Below, in pieces: positions 12,834-29,283 of a stretch of DNA of 64,000 bases. The stretch comes from Thermoflexus hugenholtzii (GTDB lineage Bacteria; Chloroflexota; Anaerolineae; Thermoflexales; Thermoflexaceae): the NCBI RefSeq assembly GCF_018771565.1, contig NZ_CP076326.1:3107785-3171784 (forward strand), read 5' to 3'. Each line of letters opens with the position of its first letter. The stretch's first letter is position 1. A program made the position numbers and the translations under genes. A model generated the notes under the pieces. The model ran no database searches and was not told the DNA's origin. It was given only the letters and a program-made list of their open reading frames with translations.

Positions 12834-12839
12834 ATTATA
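12834..12839 (-). promoter_or_regulatory. -10 element upstream of acyl-CoA dehydrogenase operon
   Basis: A perfect TATAAT on the minus strand lies about 60 bases before the start codon. I see no good -35 at normal spacing, so an activator-dependent or extended promoter is possible. Its position separates this operon from asd upstream. Confidence 0.4.
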
Positions 12840-12992
12840 CGTTACGGAGAGGGAGCGCGCGGAGGAAATTGACCTCCCGCGGTCCGGTGTTCCACCCGGG
12901 CGGCGGAACGAGGAACCATCCGTTGCGGAGCGCCAAGAGATCCGCCGGTTGGGTTGAGGTTTCCGGGACGCCGGTCGGTTCGAGGCCCCGGG

Positions 12993-14048
12993 CTACACCC
13001 GCCCGAGCCAGCGCAGGAGGGCTTCGGCGTTGAAGAGGGCGGCGCCGGCCGCCCCCCGGATGGTGTTGTGGGTCAGGGCGACGAACTTGAGGGTGAAGAC
13101 GGGGCAGGGCTGCACCCGGCCCACGACCACGCTCATCCCCCCGCCCGCCATCCGATCCAGGCGCGGTTGCGGCCGGTCCGGCTCCCGTCGCACCACGATG
13201 GGCATCGGGACCGCGGTGGGGAGATCGGCGACCTCCTCCGGCGGACGGTAGGCGGCCATGGCCGCCATCGCCTGCTCCGGCGAGATCCGCTCCTCCAGCT
13301 CCACCGAGAGGCAGACCAGATGGCCATCCAGGGTCGGGACGCGGTTGGTCTGGGCGCTGAGGCGGATGGGGGCCTCCTCCACCGTCCCGTCCGTCAGCCG
13401 GCCCAGGAGCTTGCGGGGCTCCGTTTCGAGCTTCTCCTCCTCCCCGGGGATATGCGGGAGGATGTTGTCGACGATCTCCATCGCGGAGACCCCGGGGTAG
13501 CCGGCGCCGGAGAGGGCCTGGAGGCTGACCAGATGGACCCGCCGGACGCCGTAGGGCATCAGGGCCTTCAGGGGGAGGACGGCCGCGGTGGTGGTGCAGT
13601 TCGGGTTGGTGAGGAGGGCGCCGGTCCAGCCCCGCTCGTCTCGCTGGCGGGCGAGCAGGGCGAGATGGTCGAAGTTCACATCGGGCATCAACAGGGGGAC
13701 ATCCGGGGCCATGCGGTAGGCGGAGGCGTTGCTCGCCACCAGGTAGCCGGCGGCGGCGAAACGGGGTTCGGCCTCCCGGGCGATCTCCGAGGGGAGGGCG
13801 GAGATCACCAGATCCGCCTCGAAGCCCGGCTCTGTGGGGAGGACGGGCATGCGGGCCGCCCAGTCGGGCATCGGCGCGCCGAGCAGCCAGCGGCACGCCT
13901 CGCCGTAGGGCCGCCCCACCGATCGATCGGACCCGGTGAGGGCCACCACCCGGAACCACGGGTGGCGATCCAGCAGATGGATCAGCCACTGGCCCACCAT
14001 CCCGGTGGCCCCCAGGACGGCAACACGGAACGAAGGCTGGCGGCTCAT
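12993..14048 (-). CDS. asd: Aspartate-semialdehyde dehydrogenase
   Basis: 351 residues of the archaeal/USG-1-like type. The N-terminal NADP site is VAVLGATGMVGQ. The active-site cysteine lies in LLTNPNCTTTAAVLPL, with substrate-binding ALSGAGYPGVSAMEI and NRVPTLDGHLV downstream. It makes aspartate semialdehyde from aspartyl phosphate, feeding Lys, Thr and Met synthesis. It is the last gene of the ilv/leu run, 112 bases after ilvD, so it may belong to the operon or be separately expressed. Confidence 0.95.
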   Translation of the reverse strand: MSRQPSFRVAVLGATGMVGQWLIHLLDRHPWFRVVALTGSDRSVGRPYGEACRWLLGAPMPDWAARMPVLPTEPGFEADLVISALPSEIAREAEPRFAAAGYLVASNASAYRMAPDVPLLMPDVNFDHLALLARQRDERGWTGALLTNPNCTTTAAVLPLKALMPYGVRRVHLVSLQALSGAGYPGVSAMEIVDNILPHIPGEEEKLETEPRKLLGRLTDGTVEEAPIRLSAQTNRVPTLDGHLVCLSVELEERISPEQAMAAMAAYRPPEEVADLPTAVPMPIVVRREPDRPQPRLDRMAGGGMSVVVGRVQPCPVFTLKFVALTHNTIRGAAGAALFNAEALLRWLGRV

Positions 14049-14160
14049 CGGTTCGCACTCCCTTGTTCAGATCGAGAAAGCAGGGCCGGGCTGCTCTCCA
14101 CCCGACCCCGTTTTTGGATCCCCCACGCGCTCACTACTTTTTTAGATTGAGGAAATGCGA

Positions 14161-15846
14161 CTATGGGATGCACACCGCGCCCTGAGCGGCTGAGGAGACC
14201 AGCCGGGCGTATTTGGCGAAGAGGCCGTGGGGATACTTCGGCGGCGGCGGGGTCCAGGCCGCCCGGCGCCGGGCCAGCTCCTCTTCGGAGAGTTCCACGT
14301 CCACGGTCCGGCGATCTACGTCGATCACGACGATATCCCCATCCTGCAACAGGGCCAGGGGTCCGCCGACGGCGGCCTCCGGGGAGATGTGGCCGATCAT
14401 GAGGCCGTGGGTGGCTCCGGAGAAGCGGCCATCCGTCAGCAGGGCCACCTCGTCCTTCAAGCCCTGGCCCACCAGGGCGGCGGTCACCACCAGCATCTCC
14501 CGCATCCCGGGCCCGCCCTTCGGCCCTTCATAGCGCACCACCACCACATCCCCCGGTCGGATCTGCCCGCTGTTGACCGCCTGGAAGGCGTCCTCCTCCC
14601 GGTCGAAGACCCGAGCGGGCCCTCGATGGTAGCGTTTCGTGGTCCCCGTGATCTTCAACACCCCGCCCTCCGGGGCGAGGTTCCCCCGCAGGATCACGTA
14701 GCCGCCGGTGGGATGGAGGGGCTGGCTCACCGGGCGGACCACATCCTGATTCTCCGGGAAGGTCACGCCGGCCAGGCGCTCCGCGATGGTCTCCCCGGTG
14801 ACGGTGCGGCAGTCGCCGTGCAGGAGCCCGGCGTCCAGGAGGGCCTTCATCACCACCGGCACGCCGCCGATGCGGTCGATGTCCGCCATCACATATCGGC
14901 CCACCGGCTTCAGGTCCGCCAGGTGGGGCGTCCGCTCGCTGACGCGCTCGAAGTCGTCCAGGGTGAGGGGGACGCCGGCTTCGTAGGCGATGGCCAGAAG
15001 GTGAAGGATGAGGTTGGTGGAGCCGCCCATGGCGGCCGCCACGGCGATGGCGTTCTCGAAAGCCTCCCGGGTCATGATGTCACGGGGCCGGATCCCAGCC
15101 TCCAGGATGCGGACGATGGCCCGTCCGGTCTCGTAAGCCAGCTCCTCCCGGGCCCGGCTGGGGGCCACGGGGGCGGCGGCGTTGGGGAGCGTCAGCCCCA
15201 TGGCCTCGAAGGCGGAGGCCATGGTGTTGGCGGTGAACATCCCCCCGCAGGCGCCGTAGGTGGGCACGGCGACCTCCTCCAGCTCCCGCAGCTCCTCCAC
15301 GGTCATCCGCCCGCGGGAGACCGCCCCCACCGCCTCAAAGACGTCCTGGATGGTCACCGCCCGTCCGCGCCAGCTCCCGGGGGGGACGCTTCCTCCGTAA
15401 AGGTAGATGGAGGGCAGGTTCAGGCGGGCCATCGCCATCACGCAGGCCGGCTGGGTCTTGTCGCAGCCCCCGATGGTCACCAGGGCGTCCAGCTGGTAAG
15501 CCACCGCGGCCAGCTCGATGGAATCGGCGATCAGCTCCCGGCTGACCAGGGAGGCCTTCATCCCCTCGTGGCCCATGCCGATGGCGTCGTTGGCCGGGAC
15601 GGCGTTGAACTCAATGGGGGTGCCCCCGGCGTCGCGGATCCCCTGTTTGACGAGCTCGGCCAGGCGTTGGAGGTGGTGGTTGCAGGGCTGGGCCTCGAAC
15701 CAGGTGTTCGCCACGCCGATGAAGGGCCGGCGGAGATCCTCATCCCGGAGGCCCACCGCCCGGAACATCGCTCGGTGGGGGGCTCGTTCCACGCCCTCCG
15801 TCACCCGCGCGCTGCGGTGTTTGCGCCCGTTCCCGGAGATGCTCAT
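14161..15846 (-). CDS. ilvD: Dihydroxy-acid dehydratase
   Basis: 561 residues from the ATG preceded by GGAGGAGGCACAGCC; another ATG 21 bases upstream lacks a site. Fe-S ligand motifs are [15 protein letters not shown] and [18 protein letters not shown], with the C-terminal [22 protein letters not shown]. It converts 2,3-dihydroxy-3-methylbutanoate/pentanoate to the 2-oxo acids of valine and isoleucine synthesis. It follows leuB after about 100 bases. Confidence 0.97.
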
Positions 15847-15948
15847 GGCTGTGCCTCCTCCGTTCATGTTCCATTTTCTATGGATCTGAAGGGAAGCCCT
15901 GTGGCCTTCAACGGACTCAAGGATACTTCAGCGGCGCCCATCCTGGGG

Positions 15949-17034
15949 CTATGAGGCGCAGTGAAGGATGCGCTGCGCGATGGCCTCCCCCATCTCCCGG
16001 GTTCCCACGATGCAGGTCTCCCCATCGGCGATGTCCCGGGTGCGGTAGCCGGCCTCGAGGACGGCCTCCACGGCCTGCTCCACGGCCCGGGCTTCCGCCT
16101 CCAGGCCGAAGGCGTAGCGCAGCATGAGCGCCGCGCTCAGGATCGCCCCGATGGGGTTGGCCAGGTTGCGCCCGGCGATGTCGGGGGCTGAGCCGTGCAC
16201 CGGCTCGAAGAGCCCCGGCGGGCTCTCCCCCAGCGAGGCGGAGGGGAGCATCCCCATAGACCCCGCCAGCACCGACGCCTCGTCGGTGAGGATGTCCCCG
16301 AACATGTTCTCCGTCACCACCACATCGAAGGCCGCCGGACGCCGGATGAGATGCATGGCGAAGGCGTCCACCAGCACGTGCTCCAGGGCGAGGTCCGGGA
16401 ACTCCCGGCGGACCACCTCTTCGGTCACCCGGCGCCAGAGGCGGGAGGCGGCCAGCACGTTGGCCTTGTCCACCGAGGTGAGCTGCTTTCGGCGGCCCCG
16501 GGCCAGCCGGGCGGCCAGCCGCACCACCCGCTCGATCTCCCATCGGGTGTAGCGCATCGTGTCGTAGGCCTCCTCGCCCTCGGGACCGGCCTCCTGACGG
16601 GGTCCGAAGTAGAGGCCGCCGGTGAGCTCGCGGACGAACAGGAGGTCCACGCCCCGCACCACCCGCTCCTTGAGCGGCGTCGCGCCCACCAGGGCGGGGA
16701 AGACCCGCACGGGGCGCAGGTTGGCGAAGAGGTCGAAGGCTTTGCGCAGGCCCAGCAACCCCTGCTCCGGACGGACGGGAGCGGTGGGGTCGTCCCATTT
16801 GGGCCCGCCCACCGCCCCCAGCAGGATCGCATCCGAGCGGCGACAACGCTCCAGGGTCTCGGGAGGGAGCGGCGATCCGGTGGCGTCGATGGCTGCTCCC
16901 CCGATGAGGGCCTCGTGGAACTCGAAGGCGTGGCCGAACCGGCGTCCCACCGCCTCCAGGACCCGAACGGCCTCCGCGGTCACCTCCGGTCCGATCCCAT
17001 CTCCGGGCAGCACAGCGATCACGAAGCGTCCCAT
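15949..17034 (-). CDS. leuB: 3-isopropylmalate dehydrogenase
   Basis: 361 residues. [11 protein letters not shown] at the N-terminus, [22 protein letters not shown], the Mg/NAD-binding [15 protein letters not shown], and [12 protein letters not shown] and [17 protein letters not shown] are all intact. It oxidatively decarboxylates 3-isopropylmalate; with CimA present it should also process 3-methylmalate for isoleucine synthesis. The gene begins 31 bases after the cimA stop. Confidence 0.97.
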
Positions 17035-17065
17035 CGTTTTCCTTCCCGGGCAGGGGTTTCGAATT

Positions 17066-18637
17066 TCAGCGATGATCCACCGTGGGATCGATCCCGAACT
17101 CCAGGCTGTCCTCCAGGGCGAGGCGGCTGGCCTCCAGGATGTTGGTGGAGGCCCCGACGGTGCGCCAGACCCGCTGGCCGTCGGTGCTCTCGATCCACAC
17201 CCGCACCCGGGCCGCCGTCCCGGCGTCGCCGTTGAGGATGTGCACCCGATAGTTGGTCAGGTGCACCCGGGAGAGGGCCAGGTAGCGGGGGAGGAGGGCC
17301 TTGCGCAGCGCCGCGTCCAGGGCGTTCACCGGCCCGTTGCCCTCCGCGGCGGTGTGCACGATCTCCCCGTCCAGTCGGACTTTGACGGCGGCCTCGGCCA
17401 CCGGCAGGCGGCCCTCCCGTCGCTCCACCATCACCACGTAATCCAGCACCTGGAAGGGCGGGACGTAGTCGGGGCGGGCGCGCCGGAGCATCAGGATCAC
17501 CGAGGCCTCGGCGTCCTCGAAATAGAACCCTTCGTTCTCCAGCTCCTTGATCCGGCGCACCACCGCCTGCACCGCAGGGTCGTCCGGGTCGAGGCGCAAC
17601 CCGAACTCCATCGCCTTGGCGACGATGTTGCCGCGCCCCGAGAGCTCCGAGATCAGCACGCGCTTGACGTTGCCCACGCGGGCGGGATCGATGTGCTGGT
17701 AGCTTTCCTCAGCCTTCAGGATGGCGGCCACGTGGATGCCGCCCTTGTGGGCGAAGGCGCTGGCCCCCACATAAGGCTGGTGGGAATCGTGGGGGAGGTT
17801 GGCCACCTCGGCCACGAAGCGGGAGACCTCCGTCAGGCGGGCCAGCTGTTCGTCCGTCACGCAATCGATCCCCATCTTGAGCTTCAGGTTGGCGATGATG
17901 GAGATCAGGTTGGCGTTGCCCACCCGCTCCCCGTAGCCGTTGATCGTCCCCTGTACCTGCCGGACACCCCGGCGGACGGCGGCCAGGGAGTTGGCCACCG
18001 CCAGCTCGCAGTCGTTATGGGTGTGGATCCCCAGGGGGACGGAGACCGCTCGCTTCGCGGCCTCCACCCCTTCCTCGATCTCCCATGGCATCGAGCCCCC
18101 GTTGGTGTCGCACAGGACGATCCAGTCGGCTCCGCCTTCCTGAGCGGCCCGGAGGGTGGCCAGGGCATAGTCCGGGTTGCGCTTCCAGCCGTCGAAGAAA
18201 TGCTCGGCGTCGTAGATCACCTCCCGCCCATGGGCCTTGAGGAGGGCCACGCTCTCCCGGATCATGACCAGGTTCTCCTCCAGCGTGGTCTCCAGCACCC
18301 GGTGGACGTGGAGGTCCCAGGACTTGCCCACCACGGTGACGGCCGGCGTCTCCGCCTCCAGCAGCGCCCGCAGGTTCTCATCATCCTCGGCCCGGCGCCC
18401 CGGCCGCCGGGTCATGCCGAAGGCGGCGATGCGGGCGTGGCGGAGGCTCATCCGCCGCACCCGGCGGAAGTATTCCGCGTCCTTGGGGTTGGAGCCCGGC
18501 CATCCTCCTTCGATGTAGTGGATGCCGAGCTGGTCCAGCTTCTCGGTGATGCGCAGCTTGTCCTCAACGGTGAAGGAGATCCCTTCCCGCTGGCTGCCGT
18601 CGCGCAACGTGGTATCGTAAAGCCAGACGCGTTCCAT
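17066..18637 (-). CDS. cimA: (R)-citramalate synthase
   Basis: 523 residues, the CimA rather than LeuA length and sequence class. N-terminal [23 protein letters not shown] has the metal-binding [12 protein letters not shown] is typical of the CimA/NifV-LeuA3 subgroup. The metal-site [34 protein letters not shown] block (in pieces across residues about 205-240) and a C-terminal regulatory domain are present. It condenses pyruvate with acetyl-CoA to citramalate, giving 2-oxobutyrate via LeuCD/LeuB and so threonine-independent isoleucine synthesis. The start follows GAGGAGGTGTGCG. Confidence 0.93.
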
Positions 18638-18810
18638 CGCACACCTCCTCGACCGGTATGGGATGCCATGCGAAGATCATCGGCCGGCCGAAAGCGGCGG
18701 CGATGGCGCGGGTGGCCCCGGCCAGGAACCGACGAACGAGCTCCCGGCCCGGGGCAACCCGGGTCCACCTCCTTTCTCGACGCCCCATCGCTTTCCTCCA
18801 TCGGGTGGAT

Positions 18811-19320
18811 TCAGGCCACAACGGATCCCTGGCGGAGCCGCGCCTTCGTGTAGGGGATGAGCCCTCCGGCGCGGATCAGCTCGAGCATGAACGGCGGATA
18901 GGGCTTGGCCCGGAAGACCTGCCCGGTCCGCCGGTGGAGGATCTCCCCGGTGTCCAGGCGGACCTCCAGTTCATCCCCGGGCTGGATCGCCTCGACGGCC
19001 TCCGGACATTCCAGCACCGGCAGCCCGATGTTGATGGCGTTGCGGAAGAAGATGCGGGCGAAGGATTTGGCGACGACGCAGGAGACCCCGGCCGCCTTCA
19101 GGCTGAGGGGGGCGTGCTCCCGGGAGGAGCCGCTGCCGAAGTTCCGCCCCGCCACCACGATGTCGCCCGGCTGCACCTTGCGGGGGAACTCCGGATCCAC
19201 GCCCTCCATGCAGTGGGCGGCCAGCTCCTGCGGGTCCGTCGTGTTGAGATACCGCCCGGGGATGATCACGTCCGTGTCGATGTTGTCGCCGAACACCCAG
19301 GCGCGCCCCTGGAAACGCAT
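18811..19320 (-). CDS. leuD: 3-isopropylmalate dehydratase small subunit
   Basis: 169 residues, the short archaeal-like LeuD form. Key features: [17 protein letters not shown] near the N-terminus, the aconitase-swivel loop [20 protein letters not shown], and [21 protein letters not shown]. It pairs with LeuC to isomerise 2-isopropylmalate, and likely citramalate. The ATG is only two bases after the stop of a 52-residue ORF, indicating translational coupling. Confidence 0.95.
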
Positions 19321-19322
19321 CG

Positions 19323-19481
19323 TCAGTCCTCCTCCGGCTCGGTGAAGTTGTAGCAGCCCATCATGCAGTCCACGACCCAATCCGCTTCGTGGACGCGTTT
19401 CCCATCGTCCTCGTGGGCGGCCTCCCACGAGGCGATGACCTCCTCCAGGACGTCCTCCCAAGCCCAGCGGCGGTCCTCCAT
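19323..19481 (-). CDS. Small acidic protein of unknown function in the leu operon (52 aa)
   Basis: 52 codons starting at ATG 19481, preceded by GAGGAGGAGAAACC, which is as strong a ribosome site as those of its neighbours. The stop lies two bases before the leuD ATG. It begins [16 protein letters not shown], is strongly acidic, has four Trp and two Cys, and ends [16 protein letters not shown] recognise no family. It sits between the two subunits of an Fe-S isomerase, so a role in LeuCD assembly, stability or translational coupling is possible. The alternative is a non-functional coupling ORF. Confidence 0.6.
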
Positions 19482-19562
19482 GGTTTCTCCTCCTCAGCCG
19501 GTTTCCGTTCGATCCTCCCGAGGCCTCTCCGGCTCTGCCCATCCGGCGGCTTCGGCGCTGCC

Positions 19563-20843
19563 TTATGCCGCCACGGCCATCGCGGGCACTTCCTCCGGGC
19601 TGGCGATGCGCCCCAGGATGGCGCTGGCGGCAGCCACAGCCGGGTTGGCCAGATACACCTCGCTGGTCGGATGCCCCATGCGGCCGACGAAGTTGCGGTT
19701 GGTGGTCGAGACGCAGCGCTCCCCGGGCCCCAGCACGCCCGAGTAGCCCCCCATGCAGGGGCCGCAGGAGGGCAGCCCGACCACCGCCCCGGCCTCCACG
19801 AAGATGTCGATCAGGCCCTCCGCCAGGGCCTGGCGGTAGACGGCCCCGCTGCCCGGGATGATGATGCAGCGGACCTCGGGATGCACCCGCTGGCCCTGGA
19901 GGATGCGGGCCGCCAGGCGCAGGTCCTCGATACGGCCGTTGGTGCAGGAGCCGATGAACACCTGATCGATGCGGATATGGGAGAGCTCGCCCACCGGCCG
20001 CACGTTGGAGGGCAGATGGGGCACGGCCACCGCCGGCTCCCAATCGCTGACGTTGAAATCCAGCTCCGCTTCGTAGCGGGCGTCCGGGTCATCCCGGTAA
20101 ACCGTGAAGGGACGCCGGGCCCGCGGTCGCACGAACTCCAGGGTCTTCTCGTCGACGTCCATCAGCCCCGTCTTCGCCCCGGCCTCGATGGCCATGTTGG
20201 TGATGGTGAAGCGGGCATCCATGCTGAGCTGCGAAATGACGGGGCCGGTGAAATACATCGCCATATAAAGCGCCCCATCCACCCCGATGCGGCCGATGGT
20301 GTGGAGGATGAGGTCCTTGGCCGTCACCCACGGGCGCAGGGTCCCGTGGTAGAACAGCTTCATGGTGGGAGGAACCTTCAGCCACAGCCGCCCCGTCGCC
20401 ATGGCGACGGCGGCGTCGGTGGAGCCTACCCCGGTGGCGAAGGCGCCCAGGGCTCCGTAGGTGCAGGTGTGGGAGTCCGCCCCGATGATGATCTCGCCGG
20501 GCAGCACCAGGCCCTGCTCCGGGAGCACGATGTGCTCGATGCCTCCGTCCCGCCCTCCTTCGAAATAGAGGATCCCCTTCCGGCGGGCCCAGGTGCGCAC
20601 CGCCTGACACTGCTCGGCCGCCTTGATGTTCGGGGGAGGCACGAAGTGATCGGCCACGAAGGCCACCCGCTCCCGGTCGAAGACCCCCTCGACCTCCAGC
20701 TTCTCGAACTCCCGGATGGCCAGGGCCGCCGTGATGTCGTTGGCCATCACGAAGTCCACCCGCACCTCCACCAGCTCCCCAGGCTCCACGCGGTCCACCC
20801 CGGCGTGGGCGGCGATGATCTTCTCGGCCATGGTCATGCCCAT
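19563..20843 (-). CDS. leuC: 3-isopropylmalate dehydratase large subunit
   Basis: 426 residues, matching the LeuC/homoaconitase-like short form. The 4Fe-4S cysteine ligands lie in [13 protein letters not shown] and [38 protein letters not shown] is the substrate region. It is the catalytic partner of LeuD. The start ATG follows GGAGGGGTCACG. It follows leuA by 43 bases. Confidence 0.96.
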
Positions 20844-20886
20844 CGTGACCCCTCCGTTTGTGGAAGTGTGAAGATCGTTGAGGCTC

Positions 20887-22470
20887 TCAGGGCACAGGGA
20901 CGGAGAGCTCCACGCGGGCGCCCTGGGGGGCGCGCGCCAGCCGAAGCAGGGCGTTGAGGTAGGCCTTGGCCGCCGCCACCACGATATCCGTGTCCGCCCC
21001 GAAGCCCCCGGCCAGCTCCCCGCTCTGAGGATCCTCGGCCTGCACGAACACCCGGCCCATGGCGTCGCGCCCGGGGGTCACCGCGTGGACGTTGAACTCC
21101 AGCAACCGGGCCTGCACCCCCAGGGCCGCCTCGATGGCCCGGTAGGCCGCATCCACCGGCCCGTTCCCCGTCCCCGTGCCCAGGCGGACCTCGCCGTCGG
21201 GCCCGATCAGGCGCACGGTAGCGGTGGCGATGGCCGGCGTGCCGCACATCACCTGTAGCGTGTCCAGCCGCCAGGTCTGGCCGCTGCTCTGGGTGAAATC
21301 CGCCATCAGCGCTTCCAGGTCGAAGTCCGTGACGTATTTCTTGCGGTCGCAGAGGGCCTTGAAGCGGCGGAAGGCCTCCTCGAAGGCCTCGGGGGAGAGG
21401 TGATAGCCCATCTGCTCCAGGCGGACCCGGAAGGCGTGCCGGCCGGAGTGCTTGCCCAGGACCAGCCGGGACTCCGGAACACCCACGGTCTCGGGCCGCA
21501 TGATCTCGTAGGTCAGCGGGTTCTTGAGCATCCCGTCCTGGTGGATGCCGGCCTCGTGGGCGAAGGCGTTGGCCCCCACGATGGCCTTGTTGGGCTGGAC
21601 GGGGATGCCGGTGAGGGCGCTCACCAGGCGGCTGGTGCGGTAGATCTGAGTGGTGTCGATATAGGTGCGCACCCCGAAGAGGTCGCGCCGGGTGTGCAGG
21701 GCCATGACCACCTCTTCCAGGGCTGTGTTGCCGGCCCGCTCGCCGATGCCGTTGACGGTGACCTCCACCTGGCGGGCGCCGTTGCGGATGGCGGCCAGGG
21801 TGTTGGCCGTGGCCAGGCCCAGGTCGTTGTGGCAGTGGGCGGAAAGGATCACCCGCTCCACCCCGGGGACCCGCCGGCGGATCTCGGCGAAGAGGCTCCC
21901 GAACTCCTCGGGGGTGGTGTAGCCGACCGTGTCGGGGATGTTCAGGGTGGTGGCCCCCGCCTCCACCGCCGCCGTCAGGGCCTGCATCAGGAAATCGCGG
22001 TCGGTGCGCCCGGCATCCTCCGGGGAGAACTCCACGTCCTCACAGAAGCGGCGGGCGTAAGCGACCATCTCGCGGATCCGGGCCAGGCATTCCTCCCGGG
22101 TCATGCGGAGCTTGTATTGCAGGTGGATGTCGGAGGTGGCCAGGAAGACGTGGATGCGAGGGCGGGGGGCCTCCCGCACCGCCTCCCAGCAGGCGTCGAT
22201 GTCTTCTTTGTTGGCGCGGGCCAGCCCGGCGATCACCGGCGGGCCGTTGGGGCGGTCCTTCCCCAGCGGCCCGATCTCCCGAGCGATGCGGCGCACCGCC
22301 TCGAAGTCCCCCGGCGAGGCGATGGGGAAGCCGGCCTCGATGATGTCCACCCCCAGGCGAACCAGCTGGCGGGCGATCTCCAGCTTCTCCTCCACCGTGA
22401 GGGTGGCGCCGGGGGATTGCTCCCCATCCCGCAGGGTGGTGTCGAAGATCCGAACGACATCCGGCTCCAT
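20887..22470 (-). CDS. leuA: 2-isopropylmalate synthase
   Basis: 527 residues with the catalytic HMGL-like barrel ([56 protein letters not shown]), a linker, and a C-terminal LeuA regulatory domain from about residue 390 ([30 protein letters not shown]). It condenses 2-oxoisovalerate and acetyl-CoA, the first committed leucine step; leucine feedback is normally sensed by the C-terminal domain, which is present here. The start follows AAGGAGGGGCCT. Only 10 bases separate it from ilvC. Confidence 0.96.
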
Positions 22471-22480
22471 AGGCCCCTCC

Positions 22481-23491
<1,011 letters not shown>

Positions 23492-23532
23492 GGAACGCCT
23501 CCTCCTGAATCGGGATCAGGGATCCTGAGACA

Positions 23533-24048
23533 TCAAGCCGCTTCCGCCATGCGAGCGGCGGGTGCGGCCTCCGCCTGGCCCCGGACCATCGCCATCGGGC
23601 CGGCTCGGATCACCTCGACCACACCGAACCGCTGGAGGCGGGCGATGCAGGAATCCACTTTCTCCGTCGATCCGGTGACCTCCACGATGAGGGTCTCGGG
23701 GCCGACGTCCACGATGCGGGCCCGGTAGAACTCGGCGAGCTGGGCGATCTCCACCCAGGTCTCCGTGGGGGCCCGCACCTTGACCAGGGCCATGTCGCGG
23801 ACGACGATGGGGCGTTCCCCCCAATCCTCGATCGCCCGGACGCAAAGCAGCTTCTCCAGGTTGGCGCTCACCCGCTGAGGGTCCACCCGGTCAGGGTCCA
23901 CGGGGATCAGCAGGCGCAACGTCTCCGGGTCCTCGGTGCGGCACACCGAGATGTCGCTCACCGGCAGGTGACGCCGGCGCAGCAGATGGAAGACCCGGTT
24001 CAGGCTCTCCACGGAGTTCTCAACCGTCACCGCCAGCCAGTGGGGCAT
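23533..24048 (-). CDS. ilvN: Acetolactate synthase regulatory (small) subunit, variant valine site
   Basis: 171 residues starting at ATG after AAGGAGGCGGGG. Two-domain small subunit: an N-terminal ACT domain (WLAVTVENSVESLNRVF to about residue 80) and a C-terminal ferredoxin-like activation domain containing ELAEFYRARIVDVGPETLIVEVTG-type sequence (in pieces). It aligns without gaps over the first 35 residues with E. coli IlvH, and at the two positions I remember as essential for valine feedback it differs: Gly14 is Glu and Asn29 is Pro. It follows ilvB by 29 bases. It should activate IlvB; valine inhibition may be lost or altered. Confidence 0.9.
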   Translation of the reverse strand: MPHWLAVTVENSVESLNRVFHLLRRRHLPVSDISVCRTEDPETLRLLIPVDPDRVDPQRVSANLEKLLCVRAIEDWGERPIVVRDMALVKVRAPTETWVEIAQLAEFYRARIVDVGPETLIVEVTGSTEKVDSCIARLQRFGVVEVIRAGPMAMVRGQAEAAPAARMAEAA

Positions 24049-24077
24049 CCCCGCCTCCTTTCGCCGCCAAGGATCGC

Positions 24078-25835
24078 TTATGGCACCGCCTTCACGCCGG
24101 GCTCGATCATCATATCGAACACGGTCATGCCCGAAGGGATCATGGGGAAGCAGTTCTCCTCGGGATCCACCCGGATGTCCACCACGACCGGCCGATCCGT
24201 GACCGCCAGGGCCTGGCGGATGGCGGGCTCCACCTGATCCGGCCGCTCCACGCGGATCCCCGCCGCGCCCACGGCCTCGGCCAGCCGGGCGAAGTCCGGG
24301 TTGGCCAGGTGGACAGCGGAGTAACGCCGGTTGTAGAACAGCTCCTGCCACTGTCGGACCATGCCCAGATACTGGTTGTTGATGATGAAGACTTTGATGG
24401 GCAGGCGCCACTCCACCGCCGTGATCAGCGCCTGGAAGGTCATCTGGAAGGAGCCGTCGCCGTTGATGTTGATCACCAGCCGATCAGGGCGGCCGAATTG
24501 AGCCCCCACGGCCGCCGGCAGGCTGAAGCCCATGGTCCCCAGGCCTCCCGAGGTGATGCAGGTGCGGGGCTCTGTCCAGTTGAAGAACTGGGCCGCCCAC
24601 ATCTGGTGCTGGCCCACGTCCAGGGTGACGATGGGCCGGTGCTCCCGGGTCAGCTCGTAGATCATCTGGATGGCGAACTGAGGCTTGATGACGTCGTCGC
24701 CCTGCCGGTAGCGCAGCGGGTAGCGAGCCTTCCAGTCCTGGATCTGACGCCACCAGGCCTCGGTGTCCGGCGGGCGAACGAAGGGGAGCAGGGCGCGGAG
24801 CACCTGCTTGGCATCCCCGATCAGGGCAAGGTCGGCCTTGCGGTTCTTGTTGATCTCCGCCGGGTCGATGTCGATGTGGATCACCCTGGCGTGGGGGGCG
24901 AAGGCCGAGAGCTTCCCCGTCACCCGATCGTCGAAGCGGGCGCCGACGGCGATGATCAGGTCGGAGAAGTTGATGGCGAAGTTGGCGTAGGCCGTGCCGT
25001 GCATCCCCAGCATCTTCAGGGAATAAGGGTGATCCTCCGGGAAGGCGCCCAGGCCCATCAGGGTGGTGGTCACCGGGATGCGCGCCTTCTCGGCCAGCGC
25101 GCGGATCTCAGGGGCAGCGCCCGAATGGATGGCTCCTCCTCCCACGTAGAGGATCGGCCGCTGGGACTGCGCGATCATATCGGCCGCCTGGCGCAGCAAC
25201 GCCTCGTCCGGGAACGGGCGATGGGAGCGGGCGGGCCGGAAGGCCTCCGGATCTTCGAAGACGAACTCCGCCTCGGTGAGCAGGACGTCGCGGGGGAGGT
25301 CCACCAGGGTCGGGCCGGGGCGGCCCTCGGTCGCCAGCCGGAAGGCGGCGTGGATGGCCTCCAGGGCCTGGGCGGGCTTTTTCACCAGCCAGTTGTGCTT
25401 GGTGATGGACATGGTGAGGCCGATCACATCGGCCTCCTGGAAGGCGTCCCCGCCCATGAAGAACGTGGGGACCTGGCCGGTGATGGCCACCACCGGGGTG
25501 GAGTCCATCATGGCGTCGGTGAGGCCGGTGACCAGGTTGGTGGCGCCGGGGCCGGAGGTGGTGAAGCACACCCCGGGTTTGCCGGTGGCCCGGGCGTAGC
25601 CCTCGGCCATGTGAACGGCGCACTGCTCGTGGCGGACCAGGACGTGGCGGATCTGGGGATTGTCATAGAGCGCGTCGTACAGGGGCAGGGAGGCGCCGCC
25701 GGGGACCCCGAAGATCACCTCGACGCCTTCCCGGCGCAGGGCTTCCATCACCGCCCAGGCCGTCTTCATCCGGCGACGCTCCCGGCGGGCGGTGCGTGGA
25801 GGGGCTTGCGTCTGGATCATCGCTGGCGCGGCCAT
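24078..25835 (-). CDS. ilvB: Acetolactate synthase large subunit
   Basis: 585 residues from the ATG preceded by AAAGGAGGTCGCG. ThDP enzyme: the activating glutamate region GVEVIFGVPGGASLPLYDAL and HEQCAVHMAEGYARATGKPGV lie N-terminally, the central domain resembles a FAD-type transhydrogenase fold, and the C-terminal NGDGSFQMTFQALITAVEW followed by FIINNQYLGMVRQWQE binds ThDP-Mg. It condenses two pyruvates, or pyruvate with 2-oxobutyrate. First structural gene of the ilv/leu operon, headed by an attenuator leader. The frame is open further upstream, but that part is the leader region. Confidence 0.97.
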   Translation of the reverse strand: MAAPAMIQTQAPPRTARRERRRMKTAWAVMEALRREGVEVIFGVPGGASLPLYDALYDNPQIRHVLVRHEQCAVHMAEGYARATGKPGVCFTTSGPGATNLVTGLTDAMMDSTPVVAITGQVPTFFMGGDAFQEADVIGLTMSITKHNWLVKKPAQALEAIHAAFRLATEGRPGPTLVDLPRDVLLTEAEFVFEDPEAFRPARSHRPFPDEALLRQAADMIAQSQRPILYVGGGAIHSGAAPEIRALAEKARIPVTTTLMGLGAFPEDHPYSLKMLGMHGTAYANFAINFSDLIIAVGARFDDRVTGKLSAFAPHARVIHIDIDPAEINKNRKADLALIGDAKQVLRALLPFVRPPDTEAWWRQIQDWKARYPLRYRQGDDVIKPQFAIQMIYELTREHRPIVTLDVGQHQMWAAQFFNWTEPRTCITSGGLGTMGFSLPAAVGAQFGRPDRLVININGDGSFQMTFQALITAVEWRLPIKVFIINNQYLGMVRQWQELFYNRRYSAVHLANPDFARLAEAVGAAGIRVERPDQVEPAIRQALAVTDRPVVVDIRVDPEENCFPMIPSGMTVFDMMIEPGVKAVP

Positions 25836-25860: not shown

Positions 25861-25901
25861 GATAAAACGGGAGGGGGCCTCCCGTTTGGGAAGCCCCCTC
25901 C
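25861..25901 (-). terminator. Attenuator terminator before ilvB
   Basis: On the minus strand, GGAGGGGGC pairs with the later GCCCCCTCC, closing an inner TCCC/GGGA arm, followed by CGTTTTAT. The 5' arm and loop sequence CTTCCCAAACGGG can alternatively pair with CCCCGTTTGGGAGG inside the leader peptide coding region (25953-25966), giving a mutually exclusive antiterminator. Confidence 0.75.
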
Positions 25902-25935
25902 GACCGGTCGGTGCAGATGTAGAAGATGCTCCGGG

Positions 25936-26046
25936 CTACCTGAGGGTGGTTCCCTCCCAAACGGGGTTCGCCCCTCCGAGGCGAAGGAGGCCCCGAAGGA
26001 TAAGGACGATGACGATAAGGGAGAGAACCACCGAACTGAAGGCCAT
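25936..26046 (-). CDS. ilv leader peptide (attenuation), 36 aa
   Basis: 36 codons starting MAFSS and containing VVLSLIVIVLILRGLLRL at residues 6-23, where 14 of 18 residues are Val, Leu or Ile. It then ends RLGGANPVWEGTTLR and stops at 25936. This is the composition expected for ribosome-mediated attenuation by branched-chain aminoacyl-tRNA supply, as known for ilvGMEDA and ilvBN leaders elsewhere. A weak ribosome site (GGTGGAG) precedes it. It lies about 30 bases after the predicted transcription start and about 35 bases before the terminator stem. Its 3' codons form the strand that can disrupt the terminator. Confidence 0.8.
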   Translation of the reverse strand: MAFSSVVLSLIVIVLILRGLLRLGGANPVWEGTTLR

Positions 26047-26082
26047 GCGCGACCGGCTCCACCGATCCGGGATTTGCCGCTT

Positions 26083-26111
26083 TTTATAGCACAGATCCCG
26101 CATTCTGTCAA
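26083..26111 (-). promoter_or_regulatory. Promoter of the ilv/leu operon
   Basis: On the minus strand TTGACA (26106-26111) and TATAAA (26083-26088) are separated by 17 bp, nearly consensus sigma-70 type. Predicted transcription start near 26076, just upstream of the leader peptide. Confidence 0.85.
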
Positions 26112-26127: not shown

Positions 26128-26207
26128 GGGTGTGTCCCGATTTTGTCGGGCCTGGCCGCCTTGTAGGACAACTGCAAGCAGTTGTCCTACGATTTTGGGA
26201 CACACCC
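26128..26207. repeat. Nested inverted repeat between uvrA and the ilv promoter
   Basis: Outer arms GGGTGTGTCCC (26128-26138) and GGGACACACCC (26197-26207) are perfect complements. They enclose a 13-bp perfect palindrome GTAGGACAACTGC-AA-GCAGTTGTCCTAC (26163-26190) and a small CCCGA-TTTTG-TCGGG hairpin. It lies 17 bp upstream of the ilv -35 box and downstream of uvrA. It could be a uvrA terminator without a clear U-run, a miniature mobile repeat, or an operator. The rest of 26208-26376 shows nothing I recognise. Confidence 0.9.
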
Positions 26208-26376: not shown

Positions 26377-29283
26377 TCAGCGCTTCCGCCGACGCCGCCC
26401 GTTGGGGGAAGCGGCGTTCCCGCGCAGAATGCGGCGCAGGAACTGGCCGGTGTAAGAAGCCTCCACACGGGCCACATCCTCCGGTGTCCCCTCGGCCACA
26501 ATGTAGCCTCCTCCCTCGCCGCCCTCCGGGCCCAGGTCGATGATCCAGTCCGCCACCTTGATGACATCCAGGTGATGCTCGATGACGATGACGGTGTGTC
26601 CCTGGTCGACGAAGCGCTGGAGCACCTCGATGAGCCGGTGCACATCGGCGGCGTGCAGCCCCACCGTGGGCTCGTCCAGGATGTAGAGGGTGTGCCCGGA
26701 GGGGCGACGGGAGAGCTCCTTGGCCAGCTTCACCCGCTGGGCCTCGCCCCCCGAGAGGGTCGGCGCCGGCTGGCCCAGCCGGATATAGCCCAGCCCCACG
26801 TCCCGCAGCGTCTGGAGCTTGCGCTGGATGGCCGGGAAGGCCTCGAAGAACTCATAGGCCTCATCGACGGTCATGTTCAGCACGTCCGCGATGCTCTTCC
26901 CCTTGTAACGGACCTGGAGCGTCTCCTTATTGAAGCGGGCCCCCTTGCAGACCTCACAGGTCACGAAGACGTCCGGGAGGAACTGCATCTCGATCTGGAT
27001 CTGGCCCTGGCCTTCGCACGCCTCGCAGCGGCCGCCCTTCACGTTAAAGGAGAAGCGGCCCGGCCCATACCCGCGCAGCTTGCTCTCGGGCAGGCTGGCG
27101 AAAAGGTCCCGGATATCCGTGAAAACCCCGGTGTAAGTGGCCGGGTTCGAACGGGGCGTCCGACCGATAGGGGATTGATCGATGTGGATGACCTTGTCGA
27201 CGAATTCAACCCCCTCGATGGCCTCGTGGGCGCCCGCCGGCTCGCGGGCCCCGTGGAGGATCTGGGCCAGGCGCTTGTAGAGGATCTCCACCACCAGGGT
27301 GCTCTTGCCCGAGCCCGAGACCCCCGTCACGCAGATGAAGCAGCCCAGGGGGAAGCGGACGTCGATGTTCTTGAGGTTGTGCTCCCGAGCCCCCCGGACG
27401 ACCAGGAAGCGCCCGTTCCCGGGACGCCGGCGGGCCGGGACCGGGATGGTCAGCCGTCCGGCCAGGTAGGCTCCGGTGAGGGAGCGGCGGTTGCGCATGA
27501 TGGCCTCCACCGGACCCTCGGCCACCACGTAGCCCCCGTGCTCCCCCGCCCCCGGGCCCAGGTCGATCACCCAGTCGGCGGCCCGGATCATCGCCTCGTC
27601 GTGCTCCACCACCAGCACCGTGTTCCCCAGATCCCGCAGCCGCTTCAGGGTCCGGATCAGCCGCTCGTTGTCCCGCGGATGCAGGCCGATGCTCGGCTCG
27701 TCCAGGACATACAGCACGCCGGTGAGCTGGCTGCCGATCTGCGTGGCCAGGCGGATGCGCTGGGCTTCTCCTCCCGACAGGGTGGCCGTCGGCCGGTCCA
27801 GGGTCAGGTAGTCCAGGCCCACGTCCACCATGAAGCGCAGCCGGTTGTGTAGCTCCTGCAGGACCTGGGCGACGATGGCCCGCTGCCGTTCGGAGAGCAG
27901 GGGCGGTTGCCCGTCCTCCCCTCGCAGGGCTTCGACCCAGCGCATGGCCTCGGCCACCGACATGCGGGTGACCTCGTAGATGTTTTTACCGGCCACCGTC
28001 ACCGCCAGGGCCTCCGGCCGCAGCCGCGCCCCGCCGCACGCCGGGCACGGCCGCTCGCTCATCCATCCCTCCACCCGCGCCCGGAAGTAGTCCGACGTGC
28101 TCTCCTCGTAGCGGCGGCGCAGGTTGGGGATCACTCCCTCGAAGGGCGCCTCGTAGACCCGCCAGCTTCCATCCCGGGCCTGGTAGCGAACGGGGATCCG
28201 CACGTCCTCCCCGGCCCCGTAGAGGAGCAGATGCAGCTGCTCGGGGGAGAGGGCGCGCACCGGGATGTCGGTGGGGATGCCGAAGGCCCGGCATGCGGCC
28301 TCCAGCAGCTGCCAGTAGTAGCCGCCTTCCTCCGCCCCGCCCCAGGCTATGATAGCCCCCTCGGCCAGGGAGAGGTCCTTGTTCGGGATCAGCAAGTCGG
28401 GGTCCAGCTCCAGCTGCACCCCCAGGCCCTCGCAGGTCGGGCAGGCGCCCTTGGGGCTGTTGAAGGAGAACAGGCGGGGCTCCAGCTCGGGCAGGCTGAT
28501 GCTGCAGTAGGGGCAGGCGAAGTGCTCGCTGAACAGCAGATCCTCCGGCGGCTCCGCCGAGGCGTTGTGCACGATCACCAGGCCGTCCCCCAGCCGCAGG
28601 GCGGTCTCCACCGAATCCTGCAGGCGGGAGCGATCCGCCCCGTCCCGGCGCACGACCAGGCGGTCCACCACCGCCTCGATGTGATGGATCTTGTAGCGAT
28701 CCAGCTCGATGGGCTCGTCCAGATCCCGGATGGCTCCATCCACGCGGGCGCGGACAAAACCCATGCGGCGGAGCTCTTCGAAGACGGGACCGTGATGGCC
28801 CTTGCGGCCCCGCACCACGGGGCCCAGGATCATGATGCGGGAGCCCTCGGGGAGGGAGAGGATGGCCTCGACGATCTGCTCGGGGCTCTGCTTCTGGACC
28901 TCCCGGCCGCAGCGGGGGCAGTGGGGGATCCCGGCGCGGGCGAAGAGCAGGCGGAGATAGTCGTAGACCTCCGTCACCGTTCCCACGGTGGAGCGGGGGT
29001 TGTGGGAGGCCCCCCGCTGGTCGATGGAGATGGCCGGGGAGAGCCCCTCGATCTGGTCCACATCCGGCTTCTCCATCAGCCCCAGGAACTGGCGGGCGTA
29101 GGCGGAGAGGGACTCCACGTAGCGTCGCTGGCCCTCGGCGTAGAGGGTGTCGAAGGCCAGGCTGGATTTGCCGGAGCCGGAGAGGCCGGTGATGACGACG
29201 AGCTTCTCCCGCGGGATCTCCACGGTGATGTTCTTGAGGTTGTGCTCTCGGGCGCCCCGAACGATGATCTTCCCCTTCGCCAT
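26377..29283 (-). CDS. uvrA: Excinuclease ABC subunit A
   Basis: 968 residues. Two ABC ATPase halves: Walker [10 protein letters not shown] at residues 33-41 and a second [14 protein letters not shown]; signature motifs [12 protein letters not shown] and [12 protein letters not shown]. Zinc-binding CxxC pairs are visible at CPRC, CPYC/CPTC and CEAC/CEVC, consistent with an intact UvrA. It recognises helix-distorting DNA damage with UvrB in nucleotide excision repair. It has its own predicted promoter (29323-29351) downstream of the tpx terminator. Length and motifs are complete. Confidence 0.98.

Follow-up and report, generated by a model that had tools for sequence, protein, structure and literature searches.

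A probable ribosome-mediated attenuator ahead of the ilv-leu-cimA operon of Thermoflexus hugenholtzii, with counterparts across its class

The leader locus and its operon

The window, a 64,000-nt stretch of the 3.3 Mb, single-contig Thermoflexus hugenholtzii genome (NZ_CP076326.1, positions 3,107,785 to 3,171,784), contained a branched-chain amino acid (BCAA) operon of nine genes on one strand, in the order ilvB-N-C-leuA-C-D-cimA-leuB-ilvD (Table 1). NCBIfam and Pfam assigned all nine, in agreement with a preliminary description of this DNA that had placed leu, ilv, and cimA genes in the operon. Upstream of the leader, on the same strand, was uvrA (26377-29283). At the other end, ilvD was followed by a 407-aa minus-strand ORF (12835-14058) and then an acyl-CoA dehydrogenase-like gene. 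The 407-aa ORF had no NCBIfam or Pfam match and overlaps a second ORF of 351 aa, so its frame may be wrong. The 78 bases at 26128-26205, immediately 5′ of the promoter, include an inverted repeat and belonged to a dispersed repeat with dozens of copies in the genome (52 matches, some nested) at mostly 94–99% identity. Some congeners had many copies and others none, and one copy (G000:C1:2443174-2443251) preceded the trpE T-box by ~70 bases.

The region ahead of ilvB carried the elements that the preliminary description had named. Its consensus promoter held on inspection by eye, with 11 of 12 positions on the minus strand equal to consensus. The built-in promoter scan returned no match at the locus because its rule demands a T at position 6 of the -10 hexamer. 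Transcription would start near 26076. The 36-codon leader ORF was recovered to the base, including the stretch in which 14 of 18 consecutive residues are Val, Leu, or Ile. As in an attenuator, the intrinsic terminator sat between the leader ORF and the first structural gene, with 28 nt from the end of its T-tract to the ilvB start codon.

Three helices could be drawn from this leader. The terminator (3:4) competes with an antiterminator (2:3), in which CCCGTTTGGGAG (25965-25954, inside the ORF) is complementary to CTTCCCAAACGGG (25893-25881) over 12 bp, the pairing of the terminator 5′ arm and loop with the 3′ end of the leader ORF that had been claimed earlier. Folding also returned a helix absent from the earlier account, a protector (1:2) of 14 bp between GGTGGTTCTCTCCC (26032-26019) and GGGAGGGAACCACC (25958-25945). 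Helices 1:2 and 2:3 compete for segment 2 and are mutually exclusive. Helices 1:2, 2:3, and 3:4 together make up the full set of parts of a classical attenuator. None of 200 dinucleotide shuffles folded as well as the whole leader (z -3.9), and within the 64 kb a Val/Leu/Ile leader with a strong terminator occurred only here and at one 110-aa membrane-protein-like ORF.

Table 1 Features of the leader locus and the operon
Feature	Position	Strand	Details
Promoter	26083..26111	-	TTGACA 26111-26106, 17-nt spacer, TATAAA 26088-26083
GGAG, possible Shine-Dalgarno of leader	26057..26060	-	10 nt 5′ of leader ATG, read from sequence
Leader peptide ORF	25936..26046	-	36 codons, MAFSSVVLSLIVIVLILRGLLRLGGANPVWEGTTLR plus stop; sequence and translation
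Control codons	25978..26031	-	Residues 6-23, Val/Leu/Ile at 14/18; sequence
Segment 1	26019..26032	-	GGTGGTTCTCTCCC, codons 5-10; partner 25958-25945; anti-antiterminator
Segment 2	25945..25965	-	CCCGTTTGGGAGGGAACCACC; partner is segment 1 or segment 3
Segment 2, example stretch for pairing disruption			GTTTGGGAGG
Segment 3	25881..25893	-	CTTCCCAAACGGG; terminator 5′ arm, loop, first 3′-arm bases; antiterminator partner
Intrinsic terminator (3:4)	25864..25901	-	14-bp stem 25901-25870, loop AAAC, then CGTTTT; T-tract 25867-25864
ilvB, first structural gene	24078..25835	-	Shine-Dalgarno AAGGAGG 25847-25841
Remainder of operon	14161..24072	-	NCBIfam and Pfam
ilvN	24072-23533	-	NCBIfam/Pfam
ilvC	23491-22481	-	NCBIfam/Pfam
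leuA	22470-20887	-	NCBIfam/Pfam
leuC	20843-19563	-	NCBIfam/Pfam
leuD	(about 19329)-18811	-	NCBIfam/Pfam
cimA	18637-17066	-	NCBIfam/Pfam
leuB	17034-15949	-	NCBIfam/Pfam
ilvD	15867-14161	-	NCBIfam/Pfam

Conservation and covariation across the class

Homologous loci were located by IlvB in 130 same-class genomes, and the upstream DNA of each (up to about 4 kb, less at contig ends) was read for a small ORF dense in Val, Leu, and Ile followed by an intrinsic terminator. All seven same-genus loci had both the Val/Leu/Ile run and the terminator. The promoter was also kept in same-genus loci. Across the class, 112 genomes passed the strict filter and eight more did so when the search was extended to DNA beyond the preceding gene, for a total of 120/130. 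The same filter matched 5/130 on the opposite strand, 0/130 in dinucleotide-shuffled sequence, and 1/80 ahead of trpE or hisG in genomes of this kind; the finder requires a Val/Leu/Ile run, so the richness of the leaders is partly a product of selection, and it is these controls that make it meaningful. The other ten genomes had no match under the final filter, some of them cut by contig ends, and two (G037 and G045) had no leader within 4–6 kb. A -35/-10-like pair was found in the 130 nt preceding the leader at 87 of 113 loci compared to 5 in the control window. The leader stood before whichever BCAA gene came first, which was ilvB here, ilvD at L259, and ilvE at L146 (the latter two names read from sequence, without a profile scan).

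The peptides diverged freely in all but their Val, Leu, and Ile residues and a short C-terminal segment encoded by terminator-pairing bases. The VGR usual at the C terminus is largely a by-product of encoding GTTGGG(A/C)GG, which is segment 2. Codon use in the 120 class leaders was shifted toward T-ending codons relative to ilvB (CTT 35% vs 5%, ATT 66% vs 19%, GTT 28% vs 10%), a bias that may increase sensitivity or prevent the run from pairing. Immediately before segment 2, many leaders (e.g., L010, L011, L112, and L117) contained an extra hairpin inside the ORF, of the GAGCTCCT...AGGAGC type, which is possibly a pause hairpin.

Both alternative helices covaried. When terminator arms were swapped between genomes, the median 2:3 duplex went from -18.9 for own partners to -14.2 for exchanged ones (Wilcoxon p about 1e-17). 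In a permutation test with one genome from each of 38 families and 20,000 permutations of partners, the summed 2:3 energy was -730 kcal/mol for own pairs and -589 (sd 16) for permuted pairs, and the summed 1:2 energy was -1810 kcal/mol vs -1452 (sd 31); none of the 20,000 permutations was as good in either case. Visible compensations included CCTCCC/GGGAGG, CCGCCC/GGGCGG, CCTTCC/GGAAGG, CTCAGCGC/GCGCTGAG, and CTCCTAAAC/GTTTAGGA. At a few loci (L023, L143, and L204) the own segment 2 paired no better than swapped segments. The elements and their mutually exclusive complementarity are kept throughout the class by compensating change.

The stop codon lay a median of 11.5 nt past the segment 2 core, and the terminator a median of 30 nt past the stop codon, a geometry that fits a ribosome, with the stop codon placed so that a terminating ribosome would cover segment 2. 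We folded the RNA made before the terminator 3′ arm in three states (no ribosome, one mid-run, and one at the stop codon), as the equilibrium free energy of fragments, which differs from co-transcriptional folding. The mean fraction of the arm/loop core paired with upstream RNA was 42% with no ribosome, 79% with a ribosome stalled mid-run, and 20% with a ribosome at the stop (120 loci), and the values for the T. hugenholtzii window were 31%, 78%, and 1%. In the stalled state the best fold of this window took a shifted register of segment 2. The modeled pattern supports a switch that stalling would open and that full translation, or no translation, would close.

Proposed mechanism and alternatives

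The elements, their exclusive pairings, their class-wide conservation, and the controls together argue for ribosome-mediated attenuation sensing Val, Leu, and Ile. The preliminary description had proposed such attenuation, and the retention of the Val/Leu/Ile run, the terminator, and both the 2:3 and 1:2 pairings in relatives supports it. We put the probability at roughly 0.93 that the leader is a classical attenuator of this kind, responding to charged Val-, Leu-, and Ile-tRNA and controlling the ilv-leu-cimA operon; translation of the tiny leader gene would then very probably decide whether the operon is read. We infer the transcription start, the stalling, the termination, and the physiological signal from the sequence, as follows. 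Transcription would start near the predicted site and a ribosome would begin to translate the leader ORF. At low levels of charged Val-, Leu-, or Ile-tRNA, the ribosome would stall within the run and disrupt helix 1:2, and segment 2, once free, would capture the terminator 5′ arm and loop before the 3′ arm was made. With this antiterminator formed, the polymerase would continue into ilvB. If all three charged tRNAs were plentiful, the ribosome would reach the stop codon, about a dozen nucleotides past the segment 2 core, and would cover segment 2, which would allow the terminator to form. If the leader were not translated, 1:2 would form and the terminator would again win.

The ribosome might instead stall for another cause, such as nascent-peptide arrest or general slowing, so that the switch would sense translation stress. 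The hydrophobic peptides and the strong over-use of T-ending codons would suit such a reading, but we found no arrest residue conserved across families, and the enriched residues correspond exactly to the amino acids that the operon produces. Operons for histidine in the same class bear a different leader. In 10 of 20 same-class genomes examined (L346, L347, L348, L350-L354, L357, and L359), a short ORF with HHH and then a terminator, often AGACTAGT...ACTAGTCTTTTTT, lay upstream of hisG. These are candidate His leader-peptide attenuators by their sequence, and none was found in the genus of T. hugenholtzii. That His operons carry HHH in place of Val, Leu, and Ile also speaks against a general stress signal, which we regard as very unlikely.

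Control by a factor other than the ribosome, such as a T-box, a metabolite riboswitch, or an RNA-binding protein using the same terminator, would be in keeping with the T-boxes that are widespread in the class. The T. hugenholtzii genome alone had seven T-box matches (L329-L335), before trpS, valS, trpE, ileS, pheS, thrS, and, weakly, ilvE. None preceded ilvB, where a search for the T-box family RF00230 gave no match, and at the gathering score there was no match to Rfam of any kind in this leader or in those of L010, L015, L018, and L020. A T-box, riboswitch, or known Rfam leader was rejected for this locus on those grounds. The leaders have in common, moreover, a reading frame with three alternative segments at set positions relative to its stop codon, and control without a ribosome therefore seems extremely improbable. 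This genome thus has T-boxes for Trp and synthetases and a leader peptide for its ilv-leu operon; Trp leader peptides upstream of trpE were not found as a class, and a T-box was there instead.

The ORF could instead specify a small hydrophobic membrane protein with a function of its own, and the hairpin could be merely its terminator or that of uvrA. This reading draws on the strong hydrophobicity of the peptide and on the position of uvrA upstream on the same strand, but we consider it most unlikely given that the peptide diverges freely save for Val/Leu/Ile and the terminator-pairing C-terminal stretch, that a promoter separates uvrA from the leader, that leader and terminator head BCAA operons with different first genes, and that the two alternative helices covary. 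A terminator serving only the upstream gene was rejected on conservation.

Beyond the class, 8 of 72 control loci, mainly from other phyla, matched the filter, mostly weakly. The clearest was that of a Sphaerobacter sp. MAG, also of the Chloroflexota (L097), which had the same kind of leader ahead of ilvB, with peptide MPAAARVFTLRETLVGAFLIIVGLILIIIGHIHTGGAARA, terminator CCTCCCAAATCGGGAGG, and the same CCTCCCAAA arm. Across 40 other families of Chloroflexota the filter fired in 10, and several of these, a 5.8-Mb genome among them, look genuine. A further locus, in Rhizobium sp. BK650 (L074), had an ORF MKIAMVLVVVISRMGRTV and then a terminator 131 nt upstream of ilvB, and by sequence it is a candidate BCAA leader in an alphaproteobacterium.

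Relation to known attenuators and T-boxes

The textbook examples of leader-peptide attenuation are enterobacterial, and most of the later ones come from Actinobacteria and some Firmicutes. The view in the preliminary description that such leaders are little described in this lineage holds for the literature searched, in which, with many subscription journals outside its coverage, we found no earlier report of leader-peptide attenuation in Chloroflexi/Chloroflexota. Together with the lack of an Rfam match, this would make the leaders a new class-wide case of a well-known kind of attenuation. Their presence in 120 of 130 genomes from a class of another phylum, with the logic kept while the sequence turns over, points to a widespread regulation of BCAA synthesis. 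The many divergent copies lend themselves to mapping the rules by which terminator and antiterminator compete, and two sensors of tRNA charge can be compared within one cell because the same genomes also use T-boxes. We think it rather likely that BCAA leader-peptide attenuators form an old family spread through the Chloroflexota lineage as a whole, unrelated in sequence to those of Proteobacteria and Actinobacteria, with T-boxes used for trpE and several synthetases and leader peptides for ilv-leu and, in part of the class, histidine. T-boxes at trpE and ileS were already known in Dehalococcoides (PMC2494555). A suggestion from an Rfam-based survey, whose genomes included five from Chloroflexi, places the origin of amino-acid attenuators in the gamma-proteobacteria, with few transfers (PMC3766115); a lineage-wide Chloroflexota family, if true, would contradict it. 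Enterobacterial ilv/leu attenuators have been cited as precedent in work on the Staphylococcus aureus ilv-leu operon (PMC5794164).

The present leader shares with the enterobacterial ilv/leu leaders a Val/Leu/Ile-rich peptide, 1:2, 2:3, and 3:4 pairings, a terminator with a U-tract, and a BCAA operon downstream. The ilvGMEDA, ilvBN, and leuABCD operons of E. coli and Salmonella have leader-peptide attenuators of this type. The leader described here is set apart from them by its phylum, by a single operon that also holds leuABCD and cimA, and by the lack of an Rfam match.

The Corynebacterium ilvBNC attenuator, or ilvB-II motif (PMC10272879, PMC11857589), likewise has a uORF of BCAA codons ahead of ilvB, a terminator, an antiterminator, and an anti-antiterminator. 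The overlap of antiterminator and terminator is a trinucleotide there (PMC11857589), whereas here it is the whole arm-loop junction. Attenuators have been predicted in Actinobacteria, often without an antiterminator (PMC1262725). The S. aureus ilv-leu operon, with ilvD first, is also headed by a leader peptide and terminator, but its peptide is Leu-rich and its antiterminator pairs with the poly-U tail and leaves the terminator stem intact (PMC5794164), while here the 5′ arm is taken. In T-box leaders, uncharged tRNA picks between terminator and antiterminator and is read directly without translation, in contrast to the reading through translation proposed here. A Leu T-box (RF00230) of that kind controls the ilv-leu operon of B. 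subtilis.
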